Positions 508-50,290 of a DNA stretch of 64,000 nt are shown here, piece after piece. The notes beneath the pieces are model-generated. The model searched no databases and had not been told where the DNA came from. It was given only the letters and a program-made list of their open reading frames with translations. The stretch is from Tetraselmis striata (lineage: Eukaryota > Chlorophyta > Chlorodendrophyceae > Chlorodendrales > Chlorodendraceae), in the NCBI GenBank assembly GCA_006384855.1, contig VCJN01002417.1, positions 124,001 through 188,000 on the forward strand, written 5' to 3'. Every line of letters begins with the position of its first letter. The first letter of the stretch is position 1. Made by a program: the position numbers and the translations under genes.

Positions 508-804
508 CAGGAGTTTGTGCATCGACGTGTCTCCCACGACGGTGTGACCCGCCTCGTTGAGCTTCATAGACATGTAGCGGCAGACTTCCGGCGAGAGGCC
601 GATGTACATCTTAGCCGACGTGAGGTGGATGCCTTTGTTGGCTTTGTAGATTTCCGGGTAGTTTTCTTTCACCATGCGCTTCGCCTCCCGTCTGTGGCTG
701 CCGTCGATGTTGGCTTGAAGCGCGCCGTAGGCGCTAAAACTCGAGGAACTCGATGATGACGTCGATCTCTGGCTACGCGAAGCCCGCACCGCCTGCGCCG
801 ACAT
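508..804 (-). CDS. Exon of the methyltransferase-associated gene family (second, partial copy)
   Basis: A minus-strand reading frame contains a stretch starting YGALQANIDGSHRREAKR and continuing through MYIGLSPEVCRYMSMKLNEA to DTSMHKLL, then a consensus GTGAGT donor at 502-507. The same peptide, about 80% identical, occurs at 36262-36480 (minus) in the large divergent gene near 33-39 kb, also followed by an intron holding a 24-bp array. This is therefore an exon of a paralogous gene whose downstream exons lie outside the window to the left. The serine-rich stretch near its start may be linker. The frame has no breaks here, whereas the 36-kb copy has a weak donor (GTGAAA) and a frameshift, so this may be the better preserved family member. 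Function unknown on its own. Confidence 0.55.
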
Positions 805-32487: not shown

Positions 32488-32772
32488 ATGGCCACCTACG
32501 CCAAGCTAATTCCATGCACCCCCTACGGCAAAGTTGTGAGGCCTGAGGGCATGACCATCCCACTCGGTGCTCTGTGCAGCACGGGCGGCATCGTTGACGA
32601 CGTGCGGCATGCACTTTTCCGCGGCCAGGCGACCAACGGCCATATCCGCGTTCAGCCAGAGCAACCCCATGGCGAGGACGCGTTCGGCTATGCTTTCGCG
32701 GACCTACTGAAAACTGTAATGCAACCTATTTGCACCGAGGCACGCGGTGCAATGTGGTTAGGTCTGAATTAG
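32488..32772 (+). CDS. Small unrecognised ORF (about 95 aa)
   Basis: From ATG 32488: MATYAKLIPCTPYGKVVRPE, then MTIPLGALCSTGGIVDDVRH, ending TAG-terminated at 32772. The composition looks coding. It starts right where homology to CACTA copy 2 ends, so it belongs to flanking DNA or to the next element. Possibly a first exon; no family recognised. Confidence 0.35.
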   Translation: MATYAKLIPCTPYGKVVRPEGMTIPLGALCSTGGIVDDVRHALFRGQATNGHIRVQPEQPHGEDAFGYAFADLLKTVMQPICTEARGAMWLGLN

Positions 32773-32819
32773 GGTTTGGGTGCAGCAGTGGGATGGATAG
32801 ATAATATGTACCAAGTCGG

Positions 32820-33060
32820 GAAACCAATTCCGTCCAAACAGGGACAAATCAAAAGAGTGAAGGAAACGGGATGGTTACAAGAAGTTTGCGCCGTCGCGGG
32901 CTGGAACTCTGTCCAAACTGGGACAAAAAGCCGGGGGGTTCAGGGTTTAGGGTTTTATGGTTTGTGCCGTCGGGGGCTCAAACTCCGTCAAGGCCGGGAC
33001 AAAAATATGAGCGGCTAATTTTGCGGAATTAATAAACTAATCATAATCTAATCATAATCT
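32820..33060. repeat. Short direct repeats with GGGACAAA boxes and telomere-like motif
   Basis: GTCCAAAC(A/T)GGGACAAA occurs at 32838 and 32912 and a variant, GGCCGGGACAAAAA, at 32990, with TTTG(C/T)GCCGTCG repeated between, a unit of about 75 bp. GGGTTCAGGGTTTAGGGTTT at 32937 resembles plant-type telomere repeats. TAATCATAATC is repeated three times at 33038-33070. This lies just beyond the 3' end of the methyltransferase-like gene and may be the end of that element. Confidence 0.5.
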
Positions 33061-33098
33061 AATCATAATCTTCGATTACGTAATCCTCTCGCTCGACG

Positions 33099-35828
33099 CT
33101 ATGCCGCCTCGAGTCTCCTCCTCTCCGCCGCTTGGCGCTCCGCCCGCTCCTCTTCCTCGGTCATTAGAAGGGGTAGACCCGGCCACTTCTCGAAGTCATA
33201 TGTACGCAGTCTTTGAGTCTCGTCCCATGGCTTCTCCTTGAACCATGAGATCATCATGGACTTCATCCCAACGATTTGCGTCCTCTGGTTGTCAATGAGG
33301 ATGGTCTTCAAGTTCTTGTGTGGGAACGAGTACTTCAACATATCCATATTGTGCCACCACACGGAAAAGGCCGCAGCGACCTAAAAGGCGTGGCAAACCG
33401 CACCGGCGTTAAGTTTTTATGTTGATCCCATTATGTCACTCACCCGGGTTGCACCCCTCACTCACTGCGGTTGTCCCGGTTCCGGCTATGACGTCGACAA
33501 TTGTTGTCCCGTCTGTTGCCGCCATTTTCAGGTGCTTGGCGAAGAGAGCGATAGGCTTTTGGTACTTGTTCACCGTTTGCCTATTCTCGTCCTTCAATTT
33601 CGCAGTGTCTTTGAAGTGACCCAGCATGATAGATGTAGAGAACCTGGAAGGTCACAACCGGCTCAGCGATTGATGATAATGCAAGCCGGCTACTTTCCAT
33701 CGGTCAAATCTCACCTTCGGGGATCACAGGAATAGATGTTGTCAGCTATGATGCTTGGCGGGGCCTTCCTGACGTAGAGATAGTACTCCGCGTCGTTACG
33801 CAGAGAACTGCCCATCTTCATACCGCAATCCTTGGCCCAAGTCAGGACGTGATAGATGAGGCCCTCAGGTTGTTTTTTACGGTTGTGATTGCGGATGATC
33901 CAAGCTGCTGGTCCGAGACGTGAATGAAGAAATGGCACCCATCAAGAGCAGTGTAGACGTAAGAAGATCCAGCCAGGATATTCAGCTGCCTGCGCGGGGG
34001 AAATCGGAAATCATGTAAATGAAAGCACGGCCATCTACGCACCCGGGTTGTGGGGGGTATCTTGCCTGGCGAAAGCAAACACGTCGTTGAAGTCGTCCGT
34101 GCCCCACGCAGCATCCTTTGAGTCCCAGGTGTGCAAACCAGCTCCGAAAAGCGCGTCGGCAATGAAGACTGTGGCCTTGGTTGCACGAACTGCCGACACG
34201 GCTTCCGCTACGACTTGTTTGTCGCGGGAGCCTTGAAGTCCCCCTCCACAATGCAAGTCTTACAAAGCTCCTGATTCAAATGGATCACATAATCCGTGTC
34301 GACCTCTTCGCCCTTGGCCATCACCGGAAGTACCGCGGCCTGTGTGTATTAGAAAACAGATTCAGGTAAGTAGCTCACAATGAAAATTCAGAAGAGCATT
34401 TGTGGTTGCACAAGATCGTACCTTCATCGATATCCATTGCTCATCAGAAACATTCGGAGCGGAACCCGCGATGAGCTCCGGCGCACATGCCAGAAGAGCA
34501 AACTCTGTGGAGAATGAGATGACCAAGTGCGGCATCTGATTCTTGATGTGATACGCATCACTCCCGATGTTGGCGTTGGTAGCGGCGATATGCTCTCGAA
34601 CCGGTAGTGGTGTTAGACAATCGGCGGATTTCAATCGTGTTCCGCCATTTGGCAGGAGGGGTCAGCAAGACCATCAAAGGACCGGAGCGATGAGCACCTT
34701 TGAGCAAATCTTGGAACTTTCTGGGGAAGCCTTTTGGGTCGAGGTCATCAACTTGGATCGGAACTTGGTGATGGCATCACGGCGAGCGGCCGCTTGGTGG
34801 TCCGACACTTTGTCTTTCGCATCCGAATCGATGATGTGGTCCGAGAGATATTTCCCCCATTTCCTGGCCGGTTCGTTAGGCGTCAGCACTTGGATTGCCT
34901 CCCTGCCCTTTGCCGTGTCAATGGCATTCATGACCTTGATGCTTGCTCGGCGTAAGAGGTCGCGAAACCTCCAGGTCTCAATCATCGCGAGCCACTCCGC
35001 GTTGGTGTGCGTAACAACCATTGGGCATGTGTCGCCGGTATGCTTTATGTCATCCACCAACTCGTAGAGGCTCGGCGTCACGTTGTGCTCGCCTTGGATA
35101 AGCAGTCCAACCACCAAGTACATCTGGCCCACCGGGAGATCCGCGCTGTCGCTATGCTTGGCAAGAGACGGCTCGTCAAGCCATGGCTTACCGGGGCCGA
35201 AGCCAGCATCCTTGTTCGAAAAACAAAACATCAGTACGGAGAAAGGATTGAGATTTCCGTCTGATTAATAGACAGAGGAGAAGCTCACAACTTATCTCCA
35301 TGAGGGCGACTCGGAAGTGAGCTCTTTCTTTGCCAAAGCCATACTTCTTGTTGTCGAGGATTAAATTGATAGGGTTCCGAACTGTTTCGTACACCCTCCT
35401 CACTTCCTTCTGGGAAAGTTCCCTGCCGTAGAGACGGCCGAGACTAGCGAGTTCATCCGTGTAGTGGATGCAGAGCGCGGATATATTTTCGCGAGCTTCC
35501 CTCCATCCTCGAACTCCGAGCTTAACATGCCGGTAGGCTTCAGAAATCTGCTCAAGTGGCTCAAAAACACTGCGCAAAACGATTGAGTCAGAGCCCGGGG
35601 GCATTACCAAGATAAAATTTCATCATGTAGGCTGCTTACCGTTGTGGGCGCGAGCAAAGGTCAATCAAATTTGCGAACTCTCTGCTCTTCTCATCTTTGA
35701 TGCCGATCCTCTTGAGTTCAACTTGAAGAACTTCAGACTTCTTGAACTCCTTCACGACTCTAATTTGCGGAAGTGTCCTAAAGCCCGGACGGGTTGCAGC
35801 ATGTTGGGCGTACCAGCTTTCGAAACAT
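33099..35828 (-). CDS. C-terminal exons with N6/N4 DNA-methyltransferase-like domain
   Basis: Exons read right to left: 35640-35828, 35289-35569, about 34680-35260, 34422-34634, 34043-34339, 33715-33989, 33466-33643, 33099-33380. Five of the junctions have GT-AG signals and agree in phase. The 33.4-34.3 kb part follows the order of the N6_N4_Mtase fold (motif IV first, motif I last): TKATVFIADALFGAGLHTWD (motif IV position), VYTALDGCHFFIHVSDQQL, GLIYHVLTWAKDCGMKMGSS, LRNDAEYYLYVRK, YQKPIALFAKHLKMAA and DGTTIVDVIAGTGTTA spliced to VAAAFSVWW, giving the diagnostic D-x-x-AGTGTTAVAA of the SAM-binding motif. The catalytic DPPY is replaced by DALF. Single-base frameshifts occur near 34225 and 33910. 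The last exon ends in an acidic/basic helix. Nuclear, probably DNA-binding; catalytic activity doubtful. Confidence 0.65.
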
Positions 35829-35892
35829 CTGCGAAGGTTCCGCACATACACTTTTATTTCAACAATTCCGTACGATTGTGTACTGTGATGAC

Positions 35893-36188
35893 ATAAAGGA
35901 TTTTGTCCCGCTGACGACAAACCGTTCGTCCCACTGATGACAAACCGTTTCGTCTCACTGATGACAAACCGTTTCGTCCCACTGATGACAGACCGTTTCG
36001 TCCCACCGATGACAAACCGTTTCGTCCCACTGATGACAAACCGTTTCGCCCCAATGATGACAAACCGTTTCGTCCCACTGTTGACAAACCGTTCCGTCCC
36101 ACTGATGACAAACCGTTTTGTCCCAATGCTGACAGACCGTTTTGCCCCACTGATGACAAACCGTTTCGTCCCACTGATGACATAACGA
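35893..36188. repeat. 24-bp minisatellite array in an intron of the methyltransferase-like gene
   Basis: About 12 copies of the 24-bp unit between an exon ending at 36262 (SMHKLL, donor GTGAAA) and an exon starting at 35828 (acceptor CTTCGCAG). Same position relative to the exon as the array at 42-402. Confidence 0.85.
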
Positions 36189-36261
36189 TTTTTTGTCAAA
36201 CTTAACGCCTATTTGTCAATTTTGTCATCTCAATAATAACTAGGGAGGTTTGGGCTTTCAC

Positions 36262-39200
36262 CAGTAGTTTGTGCATGGACGTGTCTCCCACGACGGTGTG
36301 ACCCGCCTCGTTGAGCTTCATTGACATATAGCGGCATACTTCCGGGGATAGGCCGATGTACATCTTGTCCGACGTCAAGCGGATGCCTTTGTTGTTGTTG
36401 TAGATTTCCGGAGAGTTTGCCTTCACCATATGCGCTTTGCCTCCCGTCTGTGGCTGCCGTCGATGTTGGCTTGAAGCGCGCCATGGGCGCGCAACAACTC
36501 TTGTATGACGTCGATCTGTGGCTTCTAGTAACTGTGTTCCGCCAACTTCGGCTTATCCCGCCTTCGTGTGCTGCGACTAGGTCCTTGAAGTTGGCCATGG
36601 TCAGAGCGAGGGGCTCATACTCTTTGGAGGACTCTCTACCCGTGTGAACCAGTGGAAAGGACACTTAGAAATTCTCGGCGGATGGGGAAGGATTCCTCTG
36701 AATAACAAATGCAAAAGGCATGTGAGTAAGTTGTATTGTGTATTGATTTGGATTTGTCTACGCATTTGATCCGGGTAGGTACAACAGGTCCCGATAGGCT
36801 TTTACCTTGTAGCTTTGCGCCACCATATTGCAGTCTTGCAGCTTTGGAGATCGGAAGTCAAATGCCGGCGGCGGAGCTACGAACTCATCGGATGGGAAGC
36901 TGAAGATGTAAGGTAACCCCGTATCCTTGTCGGTGATGAGGGTGACTCTATAGACGTACAACATGTTGATGTCGCCACCGTGAGCTGTCTTCACCTCTGG
37001 ATCAGCAATCTCGACTCTGAGGTGGCCATAAGAGATATAGTCGACGGCACCGGTGTTGGAGAGGCCATTCAAGGCCGGCGGGACGGCAAACGTATCGACG
37101 TATGGAAGCGCGTTCTCAAAATCCTTGTCAATGTTGGCCAAGTCATCGATGGTAATCTCACCTTCTGCAAAACCTTTCAGCGCATGCGCCAGCACATTGC
37201 GCTTGACCAAAGTCCATGCGTATTAAGATTGGAACCGCGGTTGGGAGGAGAGAGGCGGCTGGATCACGTGAAGTAGCAACCTCTCAAAGTTGACATTGAT
37301 CATGAACTCGTTGTACATCGTCAAGCGATAAGGTTCCAAAACGATCTGCGGTAACAAGCATAAGAGTATTAATACTTAATGATACACGAAATTGACACAC
37401 GAATTCAGAAACCTCGTGTATGCTTTGCTCACCTCGTAGAGTCCGCTCTCGTTCAGCTCCACGTCCTTGATCTTTCCGATACACGCGAGAAGTGGCCCCT
37501 TCGGATCATCGAAAAAGTCTTTGCTAGTCAGCGGGCTTGCCTTGTGCAATTCGATGTACAGATAGACCTGTACCTCAGCACTTGTATTTTTGAACCAGTG
37601 CATAGTCCAGCTCCTTGAGGTAAAGTCGCTGCATTCGTGACCTTCTTGAGCTCCGTCCCTCTTGTCAAAGAAGTCGTCGTAAGAGGCGACTGCCATCAGA
37701 TTTGTCTTCCTCTCGGGTCCAGGAGCTGGTGATGTCGAGAGCTTGCTTGCTTCTCTGCCGCCCATTGCCGCCGTTCTTCCTCCGGGCCAAAGACCTCTTC
37801 ATCTATGCACGTACTGAGGGATGCCGGAACCCTTCTCGGAGCCTCGAGAGAGAAGATCCAGAGCCAGATGCTCCAGAACCGGACGTTGGCCCGGTAGTCG
37901 GCGCTAGAGCCGGCTCAGTGGGCTCTATTTCAGGCTCCGGCTCTGGCTCGGGCATCCGCTCAGCGGGCTCTCTTTCAAGCTCGGGCTCGGGCTTCGGCTC
38001 CGGCTCTGGCTCTAGCTCTGGCAAATGACAAACCGTTTCGTCCCACTGATGACCAACCGTTTCGTCCCACTGATGACATACCGTTTCGTCCCACTGATGA
38101 CAAACCGTTGAGTCCCAATGCTGACAAACCGTTTTGTCCAGCTGATGACATACCGTTTCGTTCCACTGATGACCAACCGTTTCGTCCTACTAATGACCAA
38201 CCGTTTCGTCCCGCTGACGACAAACCGTTTCGTCCCACTGATGACATACCGTTTCGTCCCACTGATGACATACCGTTTTGTCCAGCTGATGACATACCGT
38301 TTCGTTCCACTGATGACCAACCATTTCGTCCTACTGATGACCAACCGTTTCGTCCCGCTGGCGACAAACCGTTTCGTCCCACTGATGACATACCGTTTCG
38401 TCCCACTGATGACAAACCGTTTTGTCCAGCTGATGACCAACCGTTTCGTCCTACTGATGACCAACCGTTTCGTCCCGCTGACGACAAACCGTTTCGTCCC
38501 ACTGATGACATACCGGTTCGTCCCACTGATGACAAACCGTTTTGTCCAGCTGATGACATGCCGTTTCGTCCCACTGATGACCAACCGTTTCGTCCTACTG
38601 ATGACCAACCGTTTCGTCCCACTGACGACAAAGCGTTTCGTCCCACTGATGACATACCGTTTCGTCCCACTGATGACAAACCGTTCTGTCCCACTGATGA
38701 CACACCGTTTCATCCCAGTGATGACAAACCGTTTCGTCCCACTGATGACATTTCGTTTCGTCCCACTGGCGACAAACCGTTTCGTCCCACTAAGGACATA
38801 CCGTTGAAGGAGGGCATCACAGGATGACGGAATTATTTCCAATACATTAAGTATTTCCCTTCAATTAAGTTATGTCTTAAACTACTGCGCTTCACACCAA
38901 TGTTAAATTACTCCTGACGGCGGAGTACATCCACAAGGTCCACCTAGCCGCCCTCCAGCCCCACCCCCTTTCCACCACCACCACCACCACCATACAACTC
39001 ATGTCTCAGCAGCTTCGACGGCACGTAATACTACCGTTCATGACCCTGATGCCGCTCGTCTCGTTTGGGTTTCTATTCCCACTCGTCTGCCTACACCTCG
39101 AACGGTCCTAGGTTACACCGCTTCTACAGGGAACCCTAACCGAACTCGCTCGATCTGGCCGCATCACGCGTCGAGCAGGCACGCATCTACTTAACGCGCG

Positions 39201-39274
39201 TGAAACTCACTTGGGGTGGCATCGTCGTCCTTGTCTCCCTTGTCCTTGGCAGGCTGGTTCTTTTTCGGCGCCAT
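36262..39274 (-). CDS. 5' and middle exons of the methyltransferase-like gene
   Basis: Proposed exons: 39211-39274 (MAPKKNQPAKDKGDKDDDAT, donor GTGAGT), 37815-38017 (acceptor TTTGCCAG; an acidic Pro/Glu repeat, EPEPEPKPEPELEREPAER), 37433-37765 (DFTSRSWTMHWFKNTSAEVQ; LNESGLYE then GTGAGC), 36806-37345 (IVLEPYRLTMYNEF; ALPYVDTFAVPPALNGLSN; ending at GTAAAA) and 36262-36697 (GLSPEVCRYMSMKLNEAGHT). Exons 1 and 2 join in frame, and the third and fourth join in phase 0. Intron 1 contains the 38.0-38.8 kb 24-bp array. Breaks: TAA in exon 4 near 37226 and a frameshift near 36480. Exon 1 is repeated at 41908-41970 and 44612-44674 in the tandem duplication. Continuity with the 33.1-35.8 kb exons is inferred from strand, spacing and the matching layout at the left window edge. 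Confidence 0.5.
38031..38808. repeat. 24-bp minisatellite, array 1 of the triplication
   Basis: About 32 units. The order of variant units (AAGCGTTTCG, CCGTTTCATC, CATTTCGTTTCG) near the right end is identical in arrays 2 and 3, so whole arrays were copied together with the spacer. Confidence 0.92.
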
Positions 39275-39915
39275 TCTTGCGGTAGGTTTGGTGACGCGGT
39301 AGATGAGCCGGTTTCTGGGTGGGCAGGGGTGAGGGAGAGGTGGAAATGACATGGTCTCCGTCTGCCACCGCTCTGACCCCTCCAACGGCGCGCGCGCGCA
39401 CTATAGTGCACCTCGTCGTCGTCATCAGGTTCATGTATTTTGCACCGCGACGAATATACAAGGAAAACTACTGCGACTATATATTACTATTTCTGGAAGA
39501 TATTATATTCCCTACTCGAGAGTCATAACGGTACGAGAGTACAGTCGCGTGGCAATAATATTCCTTTATGCGATGATATATTCCTCACATTGGATTTGGG
39601 TCATTGGGTGTACATACTAGTACATAACTATTAACGATATACGAAATAAGTACGAAGTAACACGAAATACTACTACGGAAATATTATCCTAATAATATTT
39701 TCTGTAGCACGATTTACAAAACCTCATCCTTACGGCATCCTGTATGTATGAGTACCGATCCGGTGTTTTAGTCATCAGGTGCAGTTCTTTTCACCCGTAG
39801 TTGGATATTATGCCCCCCGGTCAACGGCCCGTCCGAGAGCGATCATTGGCAGTCACTCTTCCTCACCACATATCACAGTCCTCCACAACCCCCGCTCGCG
39901 CCACGCTGCAACATC
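39275..39915. promoter_or_regulatory. Shared divergent promoter region
   Basis: Lies between the minus-strand exon 1 ATG (39274) and the plus-strand ATG (39916). It includes GCGCGCGCGCACTATAGTGC (39391), AT-rich TATATTACTATTTC (39479) and several ATATTAT blocks. The two transcripts start in opposite directions from this roughly 640-bp segment, which is repeated at 41971-42619 and 44675-45314. No specific factor sites identified. Confidence 0.45.
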
Positions 39916-40744
39916 ATGGCAGCCGTCGAAAGCATAGCCTCTTCTCCAGGATCCGGCACGTCGGACACTACAGTTTCATTACCGCCGTGTTCGTGCCGCA
40001 GCGGGTACTCGTGCGAGTGCGACGCGCGTGCTAGTGATCGTAAGGAGCCTGAGAAAAAGGAAGTACACGTGGGGCAAGGGCTCCAACGAGGTCACCGACA
40101 ACGAGAGTGGCAAGGGCTCGTCTCTGATCAGTATGCGCACCTCTCGCGACTATATCCGCCTCATGCTCGCCAAGGAGGCTAGCGAGCAGTCGCTGTGCTG
40201 TTCGCGGAAGTGCGTGCACAAGCTATACACTCAGTGTGGAGAGGCCCTCGTTGATGCCGTGATGGACCGTGCGTTGACCGTATACTCTGGCAATCAGAAC
40301 CGCTCCTTTGACCGGCTCGCTCAGGTTCTCAGGGTGGCTACGAGTCGGCATCCGACAAGTTCGATTAAATGTTTGATCACGGTGGCTACTTGCGATCCTT
40401 CGATCATCAAGGCCCCATCTACACGTGTGGGCGTGCGTGGGAGGTCTTGCATCCAAACGTCTCGAAACGCAGACGTCTCGTGATCCGGCTATCGGTGGTG
40501 GATAACGAACCCACGCACATCAGGCAGCGCAAGCAGTACCAGAGCAGGCAAACATGACCGAGAGAGCATGTGCGTATGTTTCTCGAGCACTTCTTCTCAT
40601 ATGACCTCGGTCACGTCGAAATCATGCCTTTTCACGACGAGAATAGCAAGACCTTTAAGAAGTACCTACCTCCCAATATGACCAAGATTTTCGTCTACTA
40701 CTAATACAAGTCGTGGGCTTAGGACGAAAACGCCATTATCCGGG
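39916..40744 (+). CDS. DUF7869-type protein, 5' exons (unit 1)
   Basis: Starts MAAVESIASSPGSGTSDTTV. A Cys-rich PPCSCRSGYSCECD segment follows, then RKRKYTWGKGSNEVTDNESG, CSRKCVHKLYTQCGEALVDA, NQNRSFDRLAQVL, and after frame changes EHVRMFLEHFFSYDLGHVEI, KTFKKYLPPNMTKIF, then the GTAAGT donor at 40745. The RKC helix and the YLPPNMTK-type motif are usual in the N-terminal half of DUF7869 proteins of algae and animals. Stops follow FVYY and YKSWA in all three copies. Frames shift near 40020 and 40370, which may be introns. The donor opens directly into the next 24-bp array. Confidence 0.55.
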
Positions 40745-40766
40745 GTAAGTACGGCCCAACATATCC

Positions 40767-41505
40767 AGGTGACTAACCGTTTTGTCCCACTGATAACAAA
40801 CCGTTTCGCCCCACTGATGACATACCGTTTCGCCCCACTGATGACAAACCATTTCGTGCCACTGATGATAAACCGTTTCGTCCCGCAGATGACAAACCGT
40901 TTTGTCCCACTGATGACAAACCGTTTCGTCCCGCTGGCGACAAACCGTTTCGTCCCACTGATGACATACCGTTTCGTCCCACTGATGACAAACCGTTTTG
41001 TCCAGCTGATGACCAACCGTTTCGTCCTACTGATGACCAACCGTTTCGTCCCGCTGACGACAAACCGTTTCGTCCCACTGATGACATACCGGTTCGTCCC
41101 ACTGATGACAAACCGTTTTGTCCAGCTGATGACCAACCGTTTCGTCCTACTGATGACCAACCGTTTCGTCCCGCTGACGACAAACCGTTTCGTCCCACTG
41201 ATGACATACCGGTTCGTCCCACTGATGACAAACCGTTTTGTCCAGCTGATGACATGCCGTTTCGTCCCACTGATGACCAACCGTTTCGTCCTACTGATGA
41301 CCAACCGTTTCGTCCCACTGACGACAAAGCGTTTCGTCCCACTGATGACATACCGTTTCGTCCCACTGATGACAAACCGTTCTGTCCCACTGATGACACA
41401 CCGTTTCATCCCAGTGATGACAAACCGTTTCGTCCCACTGATGACATTTCGTTTCGTCCCACTGGCGACAAACCGTTTCGTCCCACTAAGGACATACCGT
41501 TGAAG
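40767..41505. repeat. 24-bp minisatellite, array 2
   Basis: About 31 units, beginning 22 bp after the GTAAGT donor at 40745, hence at the start of an intron of the plus-strand gene (or of its duplicated 5' part). Confidence 0.92.
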
Positions 41506-42619
41506 GAGGGCATCACAGGATGACGGAATTATTTCCAATACATTAAGTATTTCCCTTCAATTAAGTTATGTCTTAAACTACTGCGCTTCACACCAATGTT
41601 AAATTACTCCTGACGGCGGAGTACATCCACAAGGTCCACCTAGCCGCCCTCCAGCCCCACCCCCTTTCCACCACCACCACCACCACCATACAACTCATGT
41701 CTCAGCAGCTTCGACGGCACGTAATACTACCGTTCATGACCCTGATGCCGCTCGTCTCGTTTGGGTTTCTATTCCCACTCGTCTGCCTACACCTCGAACG
41801 GTCCTAGGTTACACCGCTTCTACAGGGAACCCTAACCGAACTCGCTCGATCTGGCCGCATCACGCGTCGAGCAGGCACGCATCTACTTAACGCGCGTGAA
41901 ACTCACTTGGGGTGGCATCGTCGTCCTTGTCTCCCTTGTCCTTGGCAGGCTGGTTCTTTTTCGGGGCCATTCTTGCGGTAGGTTTGGTGACGCGGTAGAT
42001 GAGCCGGTTTCTGGGTGGGCAGGGGTGAGGGAGAGGTGGAAATGACATGGTCTCCGTCTGCCACCGCTCTGACCCCTCCAACGGCGCGCGCGCGCACTAT
42101 AGTGCACCTCGTCGTCGTCATCAGGTTCATGTATTTTGCACCGCGACGAATATACAAGGAAAACTACTGCGACTATATATTACTATTTCTGGAAGATATT
42201 ATATTCCCTACTCGAGAGTCATAACGGTACGAGAGTACAGTCGCGTGGCAATAATATTCCTTTATGCGATGATATATTCCTCAGATTGGATTTGGGTCAT
42301 TGGGTGTACATACTAGTAAATAACTATTAACGATATACGAAATAAGTACGAAGTAACACGAAATACTACTACGGAAATATTATCTAATAATATTTTCTGT
42401 CTGTCTCTTAGCACGATTTACAAAACCTCATCCTTACGGCATCCTGTATGTATGAGTACCGATCCGGTGTTTTAGTCATCAGGTGCAGTTCTTTTCACCC
42501 GTAGTTGGATATTATGCCCCCCGGTCAACGGCCCGTCCGAGAGCGATCATTGGCAGTCACTCTTCCTCACCACATATCACAGTCCTCCACAACCCCCGCT
42601 CGCGCCACGCTGCAACATC

Positions 42620-43448
42620 ATGGCAGCCGTCGAAAGCATAGCCTCTTCTCCAGGATCCGGCACGTCGGACACTACAGTTTCATTACCGCCGTGTTCGTGC
42701 CGCAGCGGGTACTCGTGCGAGTGCGACGCGCGTGCGAGTGATCGTAAGGAGCCTGAGAAAAAGGAAGTACACGTGGGGCAAGGGCTCCAACGAGGTCACC
42801 GACAACGAGAGTGGCAAGGGCTCGTCTCTGATCAGTATGCGCACCTCTCGCGACTATATCCGCCTCATGCTCGCCAAGGAGGCTAGCGAGCAGTCGCTGT
42901 GCTGTTCGCGGAAGTGCGTGCACAAGCTATACACTCAGTGTGGAGAGGCCCTCGTTGATGCCGTGATGGACCGTGCGTTGACCGTATACTCTGGCAATCA
43001 GAACCGCTCCTTTGACCGGCTCGCTCAGGTTCTCAGGGTGGCTACGAGTCGGCATCCGACAAGTTCGATTAAATGTTTGATCACGGTGGCTACTTGCGAT
43101 CCTTCGATCATCAAGGCCCCATCTACACGTGTGGGCGTGCGTGGGAGGTCTTGCATCCAAACGTCTCGAAACGCAGACGTCTCGTGATCCGGCTATCGGT
43201 GGTGGATAACGAACCCACGCACATCAGGCAGCGCAAGCAGTACCAGAGCAGGCAAACATGACCGAGAGAGCATGTGCGTATGTTTCTCGAGCACTTCTTC
43301 TCATATGACCTCGGTCACGTCGAAATCATGCCTTTTCACGACGAGAATAGCAAGACCTTTAAGAAGTACCTACCTCCCAATATGACCAAGATTTTCGTCT
43401 ACTACTAATACAAGTCGTGGGCTTAGGACGAAAACGCCATTATCCGGG
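42620..43448 (+). pseudogene. DUF7869-type 5' exons, duplicate (unit 2)
   Basis: Near-identical copy of 39916-40744 with the same internal frame changes and stops. It is followed by another array rather than by 3' exons, so it can only give a complete product by long-range splicing. Confidence 0.6.
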
Positions 43449-43470
43449 GTAAGTACGGCCCAACATATCC

Positions 43471-44209
43471 AGGTGACTAACCGTTTTGTCCCACTGATGA
43501 CAAACCGTTTCGCCCCACTGATGACATACCGTTTCGCCCCACTGATGACAAACCATTTCGTGTCACTGATGATAAACCGTTTCGTCCCGCAGATGACAAA
43601 CCGTTTTGTCCCACTGATGACAAACCGTTTCGTCCCGCTGGCGACAAACCGTTTCGTCCCACTGATGACATACCGTTTCGTCCCACTGATGACAAACCGT
43701 TTTGTCCAGCTGATGACCAACCGTTTCGTCCTACTGATGACCAACCGTTTCGTCCCGCTGACGACAAACCGTTTCGTCCCACTGATGACATACCGGTTCG
43801 TCCCACTGATGACAAACCGTTTTGTCCAGCTGATGACCAACCGTTTCGTCCTACTGATGACCAACCGTTTCGTCCCGCTGACGACAAACCGTTTCGTCCC
43901 ACTGATGACATACCGGTTCGTCCCACTGATGACAAACCGTTTTGTCCAGCTGATGACATGCCGTTTCGTCCCACTGATGACCAACCGTTTCGTCCTACTG
44001 ATGACCAACCGTTTCGTCCCACTGACGACAAAGCGTTTCGTCCCACTGATGACATACCGTTTCGTCCCACTGATGACAAACCGTTCTGTCCCACTGATGA
44101 CACACCGTTTCATCCCAGTGATGACAAACCGTTTCGTCCCACTGATGACATTTCGTTTCGTCCCACTGGCGACAAACCGTTTCGTCCCACTAAGGACATA
44201 CCGTTGAAG
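43471..44209. repeat. 24-bp minisatellite, array 3
   Basis: About 31 units, almost identical to array 2 in variant order. Confidence 0.92.
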
Positions 44210-45314
44210 GAGGGCATCACAGGATGACGGAATTATTTCCAATACATTAAGTATTTCCCTTCAATTAAGTTATGTCTTAAACTACTGCGCTTCACACCAA
44301 TGTTAAATTACTCCTGACGGCGGAGTACATCCACAAGGTCCACCTAGCCGCCCTCCAGCCCCACCCCCTTTCCACCACCACCACCACCACCATACAACTC
44401 ATGTCTCAGCAGCTTCGACGGCACGTAATACTACCGTTCATCACCCTGATGCCGCTCGTCTCGTTTGGGTTTCTATTCCCACTCGTCTGCCTACACCTCG
44501 AACGGTCCTAGGTTACACCGCTTCTACAGGGAACCCTAACCGAACTCGCTCGATCTGGCCGCATCACGCGTCGAGCAGGCACGCATCTACTTAACGCGCG
44601 TGAAACTCACTTGGGGTGGCATCGTCGTCCTTGTCTCCCTTGTCCTTGGCAGGCTGGTTCTTTTTCGGCGCCATTCTTGCGGTAGGTTTGGTGACGCGGT
44701 AGATGAGCCGGTTTCTGGGTGGGCAGGGGTGAGGGAGAGGTGGAAATGACATGGTCTCCGTCTGCCACCGCTCTGACCCCTCCAACGGCGCGCGCGCGCA
44801 CTATAGTGCACCTCGTCGTCGTCATCAGGTTCATGTATTTTGCACCGCGACGAATATACAAGGAAAACTACTGCGACTATATATTACTATTTCTGGAAGA
44901 TATTATATTCCCTACTCGAGAGTCATAACGGTACGAGAGTACAGTCGCGTGGCAATAATATTCCTTTATGCGATGATATATTCCTCAGATTGGATTTGGG
45001 TCATTGGGTGTACATACTAGTACATAACTATTAACGATATACGAAATAAGTACGAAGTAACACGAAATACTACTACGGAAATATTTCCTAATAATATTTT
45101 CTGTAGCACGATTTACAAAACCTCATCCTTACGGCATCCTGTATGTATGAGTACCGATCCGGTGTTTTAGTCATCAGGTTCAGTTCTTTTCACCCGTAGT
45201 TGGATATTATGCCCCCCGGTCAACGGCCCGTCCGAGAGCGATCATTGGCAGTCACTCTTCCTCACCACATATCACAGTCCTCCACAACCCCCGCTCGCGC
45301 CACGCTGCAACATC

Positions 45315-46142
45315 ATGGCAGCCGTCGAAAGCATAGCCTCTTCTCCAGGATCCGGCACGTCGGACACTACAGTTTCATTACCGCCGTGTTCGTGCCGCAG
45401 CGGGTACTCGTGCGAGTGCGACGCGCGTGCGAGTGATCGTAAGGAGCCTGAGAAAAAGGAAGTACACGTGGGGCAAGGGCTCCAACGAGGTCACCGACAA
45501 CGAGAGTGGCAAGGGCTCGTCTCTGATCAGTATGCGCACCTCTCGCGACTATATCCGCCTCATGCTCGCCAAGGAGGCTAGCGAGCAGTCGCTGTGCTGT
45601 TCGCGGAAGTGCGTGCACAAGCTATACACTCAGTGTGGAGAGGCCCTCGTTGATGCCGTGATGGACCGTGCGTTGACCGTATACTCTGGCAATCAGAACC
45701 GCTCCTTTGACCGGCTCGCTCAGGTTCTCAGGGTGGCTACGAGTCGGCATCCGACAAGTTCGATTAAATGTTTGATCACGGTGGCTACTTGCGATCCTTC
45801 GATCATCAAGGCCCCATCTACACGTGTGGGCGTGCGTGGGAGGTCTTGCATCCAAACGTCTCGAAACGCAGACGTCTCGTGATCCGGCTATCGGTGGTGG
45901 ATAACGAACCCACGCACATCAGGCAGCGCAAGCAGTACCAGAGCAGGCAAACATGACGAGAGAGCATGTGCGTATGTTTCTCGAGCACTTCTTCTCATAT
46001 GACCTCGGTCACGTCGAAATCATGCCTTTTCACGACGAGAATAGCAAGACCTTTAAGAAGTACCTACCTCCCAATATGACCAAGATTTTCGTCTACTACT
46101 AATACAAGTCGTGGGCTTAGGACGAAAACGCCATTATCCGGG
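45315..46142 (+). CDS. DUF7869-type 5' exons (unit 3, adjacent to the 3' exons)
   Basis: Third copy. It differs by one base (CATGACGAGAG against CATGACCGAGAG in units 1 and 2, near 45953). It is the copy closest to the 3' exons beginning at 46979, separated only by the array-containing intron (46143-46978; donor GTAAGT, acceptor CCGCTTTGTAG), so it is the likely 5' end of the transcribed gene. Confidence 0.55.
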
Positions 46143-46165
46143 GTAAGTACGGCCCAACATATCCA

Positions 46166-46900
46166 GGTGACTAACCGTTTGTCCCACTGATGACAAACCG
46201 TTTCGCCCCACTGATGACATACCGTTTCGCCCCACTGATGACAAACCATTTCGTGCCACTGATGATAAACCGTTTCGTCCCGCAGATGACAAACCGTTTT
46301 GTCCCACTGATGACAAACCGTTTCGTCCCACTGATAACAAACCGTTTCGTCTCACTAATGACAAACCGTTTCGTCCAACTGATGACAGACCGTTTCATCC
46401 CACAAATAATTACATACCGATTTTGTCCCACCGATGACAAACCGTTTCGTCCAACTGATGACATACCGTTTCATCCCACAAATAATTACATACCGATTTT
46501 GTCCCACCGATGACATACCGTTTCGTCCCGCTGATGACAGACCGTTTCGTCTCGCTGGCGACCGACCGATTTTGTCCCGCTGACGACATACCGTTTTGTT
46601 ACTCCGATGACAGACCTGTTTCGTCCCGCTCATGACATACCGATTCTATCCCGCTGATAAAATACAGATTGCGTCGCTCTGAGACCTTTTTGTCTCCTAT
46701 CTCTAAAATATCGTCCCGCTGATATATATATATCCATGTTTTCTCGCTGATGATATAAATTCTCGTCTTTCTTGTTTCGTGCCGATGATGACGCGACCGC
46801 TTATGAGAAATCGCGATGAGGCTAGTTTGCCCCGCTGATGGTATATCGTTTTCGTGTATTGACATAACTATTCATCCCACTATCGATATAATTATTTCGA
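46166..46900. repeat. 24-bp minisatellite, array 4 (diverging)
   Basis: Clear 24-bp units to about 46640, including a 65-bp local duplication (CCCACAAATAATTACATACC twice), decaying into degenerate copies up to 46900. It fills the intron between 5' and 3' exons of the plus-strand gene. Confidence 0.85.
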
Positions 46901-46978
46901 CACACTTTAGACCGCACTTTTCTGTCTCACATTATGAGACCTGATTTGTATATCTATTATGCCCGTGCCGCTTTGTAG

Positions 46979-49263
46979 ATTTGGCTACCGAGAGCGAAGT
47001 GAAGCTCGCGTCGTTCGACACTTTCCGCCGGACTTGAAAGGAGGATTTCCCGGATGTCCACCTACCACGCAAAAGGTGAAGCGATTTAGCCACTGTCCCA
47101 TTTGCGCAGCGGGCAAAGCGCTCAGAGACCAAGCTCGCGAGATTTGTACAAAGGACATGACGCCAGAGGAACGTCAAGTGCACCGTCAACATCAACATGT
47201 CGTGAGGCGTTAGGTCAGAGCCGAGCAGAAGGTTCACCTCGAGAGAGTACGCCAGGAACGAAGGGACCTGAACAACGCCGTCTTTCAGTCGCGCCTTGGC
47301 CATGGAAACTTCTTCTACTTCGAAATTGATAGCATGGACACCGCGAAGACCCTGCTGCCTCATCATTGAGTTCGCATCCCCAAGACTGTGAAGCCCGAAA
47401 TGCTCCTCAAGTATCACCTCCCCTGTGTGAAGTACGACGGCTACCGCCCGGACGACATCTACTACTACACCAACACCATCCCCTGTGATTCATCCACGAC
47501 TTGCACTCTGATATGGATCACGATCATGAAGGTGAGCTCGTAGTCACACCGACTGATTCGCCCAAGTGGTCCAGTAGCCGTGGACTGATGAAATATGATC
47601 TGCAATGCATGAAACTCAACACCGTGGTAGAAAGATTCCGTACATCATAGTCCAGATGGACGACACCGTCAGGGAGTAGAACAAAAATAGGAACGTGGCG
47701 GCCCTATGCAATTGGCTTGTGTCTATTGGCATCTGCGACATCATTCATTTGGTCTTCCTGCCTGTCGGGCACACTCATGAACGGGTTGACCAGATCTTCA
47801 GCCGCATCAGCCTTGCTCTATCTCGCAGCTCCGCCTACACAGTCGAGGCCTTTCTTGACTTGGTTGCGAAGGCATTCTCGGCCACTCCGGAGATTGCTGA
47901 GGTCTCATTCTCCCTAGACTTCTCTGAGTGGTTAAGGCCCCATTTCCAAGACCACATCCATGACATCAGCAAGCGGCACAAACTCGAGTTCACCCGCGAT
48001 GACGCCCCCGCGTCCGACGGCTCGCTGCGCACCGCCTTGTGGTCCAACACGCCGCTTTCCGAGCCCGTGCAGATCTTGAAGAGCGCGCCAACTGGGACGC
48101 CCGAGATTCGTGCGGGCCGGCCCCTTTTGTACGCTCTCTGCGACAAAAGAAAGCCCGACGCGATGAAGGTCCAGAGGTACTTGGATGACTTCAAGGAGGT
48201 CAGGTCGTACATAACGGACCTGGCGGTCCAGTGGCACTTCTCCCTGGTCGAGCGCGAGAGCTGGAAGAATCTGCTCGACGACTTGGATAAGATGCAAACT
48301 GCTCCTTCGGCAGCTTTCTCCGGGTACTGGCCGCAGCGGAAAGAGGAAGTTGACGACTTCTTGCGCGAGCACGGGCAGACCGCGCCCGCCGATGCGCACG
48401 TCACATGATGGCTACCAACGCAGACCTCAACAATGCCGAAGCCGCTCGCGTTGAAGCCGAGGTTCGTGCTCAAGTGCTTCAAGATGACAGCGCCTTCCAA
48501 GGAGTTCACGCCGGCGCCAAGGAGAGGCTTCATGTAAACACATCGCCCAGCGGTGCAAAGGGCACGAACCTCGTTGTCATTGACGTCTCCGATGTGAGTC
48601 CCATTGTTTGTCAGATTTGTCCTTTACGGGACAAAAAGCAATTTGGCTTATCTACATTGCTTGCTATTTTGTCCCAGCTGGGACAAACAGCGTGGCGTCT
48701 CGCTCGGGACTAACATAGCTCATGGTCTTGGCCATCATTAGGTGCATGAGGAAGACAAGTGTCCTGAAACTCTTGGTGATTGGGAGTCGAGATTCGTCAT
48801 CGGACTTGTGAAGTCGCGCGAGACTACCAAAGACACGTTGACCGTGGCCATATACGCGCCCTTCCATGCCGATGCAAAGGGCAAACCTCTCATGCCCCTA
48901 TGGATGTACGCGCAGACAAAAGGAGGGAAGAAGCCAGTTGACACGAGCTAGCAGAGGTGCGTGACGCTTCCTTAGACGCTCGTTGAAGCCGTCTCCCTAT
49001 CGTACGCGAAGGCCATCCACGACGCGTCGGGAAGTCGCGAGGTGTTCAACGAGGACGACACCATGGATAGAAAGAAGTGGTACGGTAAAAGCGTCCAAGT
49101 CGTGAAGACATACGCGCAAACTGGGTGGCAAATCAGCCAGCCACGAAACAACTGCGTCCACGCCATGTCCACCACCCCAGCGCAACGCAAGCCCGGCGGA
49201 GTCGTCAAGTTTAACGCGGCCACGAAGAAGGACTTGCTTGAGTTGGGGATGCTCAACGAGTAA
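46979..49263 (+). CDS. DUF7869-type protein, 3' exons (degraded)
   Basis: Acceptor TTTGTAG at 46978. Segments in order: LATESEVKLASFDTFRR then a stop for Trp, KRFSHCPICAAGKALRDQAR, LNNAVFQSRLGHGNFFYFEI and DSMDTAKTLLPH (to about 47370), LKYHLPCVKYDGYRP.. to GTGAGC at 47532. Next exon from 47631: IPYIIVQMDDTVRE, a TAG, NKNRNVAALCNWLV, then LVFLPVGHTHERVDQIFSRI, the DUF7869 hallmark. A frameshift at about 48405 leads to an exon ending at GTGAGT (48594). The last exon (48742-49263) has LGDWESRFVIGLVKSRETTK and WMYAQTKGGKKPV, with two in-frame stops, ending GMLNE. The pattern D..NKN...HTH.xxDQ.F recalls a metal-dependent nuclease fold, but this family has no agreed activity; I infer a transposase-like role from genomic habit. 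Confidence 0.7.
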
Positions 49264-49366
49264 AGTAATAGCAACGTCTTGTGGCTTGGCGGTAGATTCA
49301 AACATGATCATGCATATTGATTTGCCTCATCTTGTTCCATTTTGGACAAATGCTCCAAACCCAGCA

Positions 49367-50290
49367 TGGCATATGCGTCGCGGCTGGCCTACACGCTGAT
49401 GAATGATGCACTGCACCCGAGGTCTACAAACCCAAGCTACACCACCCGTGAGTCTTAAGTACTGATAGAAGACCCGGAAACTAGGGCATAATCAAGCCCT
49501 ACGGTGCAAAATGTTTTCCACGGTGCAAAATAGGTTGAAATACTGTTTGAACAGCTCCGCTCAGCCAAAGCAGTACGACACAGCCGACAAGAAGCACATG
49601 CTTGAGGCAGGTTTTCAAGTGTCCGATTCGGGTGTCGTCATGCTGTATTTTACCTCGTGCGTACCCGACGCGATGCGTGCCCAAATCTTGAACCCAGCAC
49701 CCGAGGCGGCGCCAACCCCCGACCCCATGGGATCTGACACGGGCACCGGCGTTAAAACGCCCCCGTCGACGTCCCATCCATTGCTGTCAGTACGATCCAA
49801 GGGCGGGCGTCCACCCTGAAAGGTACACTGAGTCGGCGGGTGGCTGACATGAGTGCGTGGAGGATTTGAATTTCACAGGCGTTGACCGCCCCGTGCCGCG
49901 TTTTTGTCGTTGCTCCTGCAGCTGAGGACAAGGCGGTGCGGTCGGATGTCTTTGACGAATGCTGGCCGCGCGACACTCAGCCGGGGATCCCTTACCCTCT
50001 AAAGAAGATGCAGAGGTTTCACATGGCCGCGCCCCGTACATCGAGCGGATATGTTACGTACACTACCTTCAACTACCGTGCTGGCTACACAGCCGACAAC
50101 CACGTCTACACCAAAGAGACCGTCATGGCCGCGTTCCGAGAGTACACCCCCTCCCCCTTCATCCCAACCCCACTGCGACCATCCTTGTGGGTTGTGCTGA
50201 CGGTGCACCTTGTGATGTACATGAAGCAGGGGAACGTGAGGAACTACCTCGCTCGGCACTACTTCCCACTAGGCTCCCAGCTTGTTCCGT
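49367..50290 (+). CDS. Unrecognised multi-exon gene, 3' end cut by CACTA copy 2
   Basis: Candidate exons: 49367-49450 (MAYASRLAYTLMNDALHPRS, donor GTGAGT), about 49533-49822 (RLKYCLNSSAQPKQYDTADK; FQVSDSGVVMLYFTSCVPDA; donor GTACAC) and 49880-50290 (acceptor TTTCACAG; YVTYTTFNYRAGYTADNHVY; LRPSLWVVLTVHLVMYMKQG). The last frame crosses into the left end of CACTA copy 2 and stops there at 50290. No family recognised. It may be part of the upstream element or an independent gene disrupted by the transposon. Confidence 0.4.

Follow-up and report, generated by a model that had tools for sequence, protein, structure and literature searches.

Cut-and-paste DNA transposons of the DDE/D kind, mariner/Mos1 among them, are bounded by terminal inverted repeats (TIRs) and a short target-site duplication (TSD), which in mariner/Tc1 elements is TA. 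Here we describe an element of comparable build in the green alga Tetraselmis striata, contained in a 64,000-nucleotide stretch of DNA that we call the window (contig C1950, positions 124001–188000). Like mariner and other DDE/D transposons it has TIRs, a short TSD and a transposase core of similar predicted fold, but its TSD is 4 bp long, its putative transposase belongs to the DUF7869 family, and it carries a second, divergently oriented gene whose product (the partner) resembles beta-class DNA amino-methyltransferases.

Mobile elements that carry DNA-modification genes have been described before. Viral genomes have been reported to contain DNA transposons that likewise bear a methyltransferase gene (PMC3627910), but these are described as virus-integrated, encoding a mariner transposase and an endonuclease together with Methyltransf_26 or C5 methylase domains, whereas the present element pairs DUF7869 with a beta-class amino-methyltransferase-like protein in an algal assembly. 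Sola2 is also reported to have a 4-bp TSD (PMC3627910), the likeness being one of TSD length alone. The DNMT retrotransposons of Symbiodinium and charophytes (PMC5890265) and the Dam-carrying DIRS elements (PMC6338049) are further algal or other mobile elements with DNA methyltransferases, although they are retrotransposons and their enzymes are of C5 or Dam type. A transposase paired with a DNA-modification enzyme is also found in fungal DNA transposons with TET/JBP dioxygenases (PMC12730594), which differ in acting on 5-methylcytosine and in the transposase lineages and TSD lengths described for them. Finally, the bdelloid N4CMT protein (PMC8885841) is, as here, a bacterial amino-methyltransferase of PF01555 type in a eukaryote; it is, however, described as the product of gene capture, with an SPPY motif, and as depositing N4-methylcytosine at transposons, while the protein described here is element-borne and has no such motif. 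A preliminary description of our locus had held that an element carrying its own amino-methyltransferase would be unusual in eukaryotes; for a eukaryotic mobile element with a methyltransferase there are precedents in PMC3627910, PMC5890265 and PMC6338049.

Results

The locus in the window is a DNA transposon, as seen from its inverted ends, its 4-bp duplications and the hundreds of such ends in the assembly. Its limits and flanks are as follows (window coordinates).

32712..49547, no strand: complete transposon copy of 16.8 kb with TIRs; homology between copies stops at both points, with TIRs and the 4-bp TSD TGAA/TGAA
32712..32733, plus strand: left TIR, on the methyltransferase side; differs from the common motif AACAGTAATNNAACCTATTTTGC by one substitution and the loss of a T
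49525..49547, minus strand: right TIR, on the DUF7869 side; same end point in 28 other copies, whose flanks differ
32708..32711, plus strand: left copy of the TSD, TGAA, from flank comparison
49548..49551, plus strand: right copy of the TSD, TGAA, from flank comparison

The element terminates in inverted repeats of about 23 bp (AACAGTAATNNAACCTATTTTGC). Of 30 DUF7869 loci, 28 in addition to the window copy have the same end on the DUF7869 side, with differing sequence beyond it, and one runs off its contig; the methyltransferase-side end was located by comparison of copies. When 20 other copies were inspected at both ends, one had no left repeat and 12 of the remaining 19 were flanked by identical 4-bp sequences, for which chance agreement is about 1 in 256. 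These duplications are of mixed sequence and not of the TA type of mariner/Tc1. The searched assembly comprises 224 Mb in 2903 contigs, and across it the end motif occurs 416 times (222 + 194), the reversed control giving 0; pairing of the first 100 of these 416 motifs yielded 20 inward-facing pairs with a median spacing of 12.4 kb (range 7.3–28 kb). The element measures 12–17 kb, and the copy on contig C1562, which is used throughout as a reference, 12.4 kb. The preliminary description had proposed a mobile element at 33099..49263; comparison of copies revealed the inverted ends and TSDs that they have in common and extends the element to 32712–49547. We class it as a cut-and-paste transposon because of its sharp common TIR ends, the fixed 4-bp length of its TSD and the predicted RNase H fold of its transposase.

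The two genes occur together across the genome. In whole-genome searches by protein and by family 150 candidates were scored, so that copy numbers and linkage fractions given here are lower bounds; with one exon per gene as genome query there were 681 and 573 candidates, 150 of each being scored. Among the 150 scored DUF7869 hits of the first family, to which the window copy belongs, a partner lay within 20 kb in divergent orientation in 82 and in tandem in 2. The expectation that the genes would be adjacent and divergent elsewhere is thus borne out in 82 of the 84 copies with a partner within 20 kb, among the matches listed. Gene models agree: 14 of the 35 partner models have a DUF7869 model no more than four identifiers away, where chance would give 0.35. 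The JGI label Tetstr1, presumably for Tetraselmis striata, and TSEL gene names are common to all 35 proteins related to the minus-strand gene. A second family, with homology measured by tblastn, is 31–34% identical to the first in the main stretches of DUF7869 and 30% identical in the partner. Setting the best 50 rows of one search against 71 rows of the other, 17 of those 50 listed were divergent and 1 tandem. Because the divergent order occurs in both families, the pairing probably predates their split.

As to the DUF7869 gene, the identity proposed in the preliminary description is borne out by the window exon at 47680–48408, which matches PF25273 with an E-value of 7.3e-27 and 94.6 bits (cut-off 26); the first family scores 149.5 bits and the second 83.3. 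The protein is predicted to adopt an RNase H fold with three acidic residues, on the basis of the VIA-align ranking of its predicted structure, its motifs and its strand order. A search of PDB sequences with the DUF7869 profile gave no match. Taken as a prediction, the DDE-like character suggested earlier is upheld, and a D-D-D transposase of RNase H fold is strongly indicated. In four gene models (P0043, P0044, P0045 and P0085) DUF7869 is joined to PF00069, PF00443, PF02348 and PF02899 domains, which we take to be kinase, ubiquitin hydrolase, cytidylyltransferase and integrase; these joins may be annotation fusions or co-option.

The partner was modelled in C1562 as 10 exons with eight GT-AG introns and one GC-AG intron, giving at least 1340 residues; splice sites were picked to keep the frame, and statements on partner models rest on this splicing. 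The GC-AG intron boundary lies at C1562:49085-49166 (window 34073-34000), and five public gene models lack most residues placed after it. The minus-strand exon pieces of the window, joined by eye, match PF01555 (N6_N4_Mtase) at 2e-7 and 31.6 bits against a cut-off of 26.7, in line with the assignment made from the bare sequence. The spliced proteins score 31.6 and 27.9 bits, gene model P0007 falls just below the cut-off at 25.4, and the second family, at 39.1 bits, scores higher than the first. PF01555 recognises only the C-terminal quarter of the partner, and a Pfam scan placed no family above cut-off over its N-terminal part. A profile search of solved structures points to the beta class, with the bacterial-type CcrM (1.5e-4), MboIIA, RsrI and DpnA. 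The capture from bacteria proposed in the preliminary description is kept here as a conjecture. S-adenosylmethionine (SAM)-binding motifs X and I lie on the C-terminal side, in a stretch with a profile-profile match of 95%; in profile-profile comparison with other methyltransferases of the assembly, 42–43 columns were aligned, spanning motifs X–I and not motif IV. Motif I had 34 matches in the fetched loci and reads GTGTT in 32 of them, and in the multiple alignment the lysine of motif X is conserved, as is an acidic residue at motif II within the first family.

The ordered N6_N4_Mtase motifs claimed in the preliminary description are therefore present as regards the cofactor motif and missing as regards the DPPY-type catalytic motif. 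The classical catalytic motifs of amino-methyltransferases are DPPY, SPPY and NPPY (PMC8885841). Motif IV in the form [D/N/S]PP[Y/F/W] is absent from all 35 gene models, the C1562 model, the second-family fragment and the public relative P0096, and for this reason we file the partner as a relative of beta-class amino-methyltransferases rather than as a proven enzyme. Other methyltransferases of the assembly retain DPPY or D-V/L-P-Y. A multiple alignment with those of D-V/L-P-Y type puts DALF (first family) and DSNY (second family) at the place of motif IV, where P0096 reads DANY, so that a change of motif IV is common to the two families and P0096. The string ADALF is found in 31 of the 35 gene models and in all 28 matches in the loci.

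The assembly holds other methyltransferase genes. A third, distant methyltransferase-like family, represented by a 561-residue open frame (L094, C1117:94480-95120), reads FADCPRAPP at the motif IV place, with unclear alignment. Two PF01555 methyltransferases, L001 (C1010:98304-102224) and L002 (C2009:25099-28524), read IDPPY and SDVPY; their neighbours are long open frames that by eye look bacterial or phage-like, possibly on contaminating contigs. Three amino-methyltransferases in open frames, L003 and L005 (C1597) and L004 (C803), read CDLPYG and adjoin open reading frames resembling by eye a C5-methyltransferase-like protein, a tyrosine recombinase and an ATPase; judged by eye, they are perhaps Polinton-like virus insertions.

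Comparison of the window copy with C1562, at a synonymous divergence (dS) of about 0.15–0.18, gave a ratio of nonsynonymous to synonymous divergence (dN/dS) of 0.22 in the main exon of DUF7869. In the partner the ratio was 0.36 for the large exon and 0.42 across three methyltransferase exons. Values this far below 1 between subfamilies suggest that both proteins are maintained by selection.

The window copy itself is decayed. Its parts, and an exon of a neighbouring second copy, are listed below.

33099..37845, minus strand: methyltransferase-like gene, decayed copy; tblastn extent against the 1340-residue protein modelled from C1562 (10 exons there)
33099..34339, minus strand: exons encoding the PF01555 domain similar to beta-class amino-methyltransferases; motif I reads GTGTT, and IADALF occupies the position expected for motif IV
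39916..40743, plus strand: first DUF7869-gene exon, tandem copy 1, frame-disturbed, from comparison with another copy
42620..43447, plus strand: first DUF7869-gene exon, tandem copy 2, from comparison with another copy
45315..46141, plus strand: first DUF7869-gene exon, tandem copy 3, from comparison with another copy
46978..47531, plus strand: second DUF7869-gene exon; first aspartate motif EIDSMD; stops relative to C1562
47605..48596, plus strand: third DUF7869-gene exon; second and third aspartate motifs, the second adjoining a stop; GHTHERVDQIFS intact
48742..49263, plus strand: last DUF7869-gene exon; stops relative to C1562
38025..38805, no strand: 24-bp minisatellite between the genes, from repeat analysis
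35901-36182, 40770-41501, 43474-44205 and 46168-46658, no strand: further 24-bp minisatellite arrays, from repeat analysis
508..732, minus strand: one exon from a second methyltransferase-like gene copy, sharing 93% identity with its counterpart in another copy of the genome

As first described, the locus has two genes of several exons each, one per strand. The minus-strand gene has a stop inside its second modelled exon, and the DUF7869 exons contain stops and inserted bases relative to another copy. The genes are divergent as stated, but the single intergenic region that they were said to share is not an undivided gap: the space between their matched parts, taking the minus-strand gene as its matched extent, is only about 37.8–39.9 kb, and 39.9–46.1 kb holds three tandem first DUF7869 exons with 24-bp minisatellites. 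Most of the extra length of the window copy is due to this triplication with its minisatellites. The diagnostic exon that had marked the locus as multi-copy is indeed a second copy (window 732-508, 93% identical to another copy's exon), and further matches to the methyltransferase-like gene lie left of the window at C1950:121614-123358. The 24-bp minisatellite (TGACAAACCGTTTCGTCCCACTGA) is found within introns of the element and between its genes, in C1562 as well, with another array at window positions ~1-440; it may be a binding or silencing platform.

Discussion

In our view the locus is likely to be a decayed copy of a DNA transposon whose two genes encode a DUF7869 transposase and a SAM- and DNA-binding accessory protein derived from a methyltransferase. 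As suggested by the predicted fold and the TSD, the transposase would bind the inverted ends and cut and join the element with a 4-bp stagger. The partner would descend from a beta-class DNA amino-methyltransferase and, judging by its motifs, would serve as a SAM-binding and probably DNA-binding accessory in the same life cycle, its methyl-transfer site rewired or lost. It would most likely act on the element's own DNA, either by marking it or by helping the transposase to assemble on the ends. This last step is the reading that we prefer, with the balance between it and active classical methylation about even. More tentatively, and with the balance somewhat against it, DUF7869 may define its own superfamily of eukaryotic DNA transposons (D-D-D, 4-bp TSD) in which a non-classical methyltransferase-derived partner is an ancient obligatory co-factor of transposition.

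Several observations weigh against this account. At the level of the element, a matching 4-bp duplication is absent from 7 of the 19 copies with both ends, and C2047 and the further copy C1496 lack the left end. Among the matches listed, 66 of 150 DUF7869 hits have no partner within 20 kb and 32 of 50 second-family rows have no DUF7869 hit on the contig; second-family ends were not found in C2248 at 15.5–17.5 kb and 32–38 kb, where the sole exact match of at least 12 bases was one of 12. The DUF7869 model is of moderate confidence (mean predicted local distance difference test score, pLDDT, 47.8; core ~60–86), Foldseek returned no match for it at E ≤ 0.001, with NurA nucleases in the top rows, and VIA-align only re-ranks the Foldseek list, a typical best Z without a clear relative being 7–8. 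The structure model of the partner failed (pLDDT 32) and sheds no light on its long N-terminal part. Every profile match of the partner is limited to the cofactor half (motifs X and I) and none extends over motif IV, whose placement at DALF comes from one multiple alignment. PF01555 is matched at E ≤ 1 in 4 of the 23 partner models scanned, many of which skip those exons, and GTGTT is present in 4 of 35 public gene models, which mostly skip the exon concerned. Lastly, when very similar copies are compared, the methyltransferase exons often have a dN/dS greater than 1, as does the large exon in one case, perhaps owing to alignment around a paired one-base insertion and deletion.

Two alternatives concern the partner. 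It could be an enzyme that still methylates N6-adenine or N4-cytosine by way of a variant motif IV and marks the element's DNA, for example mimicking the permissive N6-methyladenine of active genes in green algae and so escaping silencing. This self-marking role is attractive because N6-methyladenine is linked to permissive chromatin in a eukaryote sample that includes chlorophytes (PMC12695648). Activity would also agree with the near-universal intact motif I in matched loci (GTGTT, 32 of 34), the retained motif X lysine and first-family motif II acidic residue, the dN/dS of 0.42 on three of these exons and, if motif IV is placed rightly, the conserved aspartate and aromatic residue of DALF, DSNY and DANY. 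Yet no model has a DPPY-type motif, which other methyltransferases of the assembly keep in that form or as D-V/L-P-Y, and we regard an active enzyme as rather unlikely. That missing motif would be natural if the methyltransferase domain were instead a dead relic, the protein being kept only for another part, with which it would serve the transposition complex as a subunit that binds DNA or gives structure. The large upstream exon, which is at least as constrained (dN/dS 0.36), and the N-terminal part without a Pfam family above cut-off fit a relic too, but motifs X and I persist across families ~30–39% identical, and a relic would not need them; we judge it similarly doubtful. In weighing these readings, the weaker placement of motif IV is balanced by the fact that no DPPY-type motif occurs anywhere.

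The nature of the element is far less in dispute. Its 12–17 kb size would suit an integrated Polinton-like virus, and such viruses are reported in Tetraselmis (PMC10120064). In C1562, however, two intron-bearing genes occupy about 9 of 12.4 kb, no capsid, polymerase or packaging gene was noticed among those of its frames that were listed, although no search aimed at them was made, and profiles A1 and A3, run over viral contigs with only one and two peptide patterns, yielded no confirmed relative. A viral origin is thus very improbable. If segmental duplication rather than transposition had spread a multi-copy pair of host genes, many copies of conserved order would result, but not inverted ends, 4-bp duplications and sharp common ends whose flanks differ; a host gene family of this kind is ruled out by the sharp ends and TSDs, and the probability that we leave to it is negligible.

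For the two-gene transposon that we favour, the open-licence literature, as seen in titles and the beginnings of abstracts, contained no report of this element or of a pairing of DUF7869 with a methyltransferase-like protein, and the term DUF7869 was not found there. Transposons that bear methyltransferases are already known, and DUF7869 may stand in Repbase under another superfamily name. The work suggests a transposase function for DUF7869, a family without function in Pfam. It also provides a natural case of a DNA-modification enzyme fold that travels with a transposase, both having diverged to ~30–34% identity with their gene order kept. The element makes it possible to test whether a transposon sets an epigenetic mark on itself or whether a methyltransferase has been turned into a transposition factor. 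If DUF7869 elements do form their own superfamily with an obligatory partner, they would link the chemistry of DNA modification to cut-and-paste transposition in a new manner.

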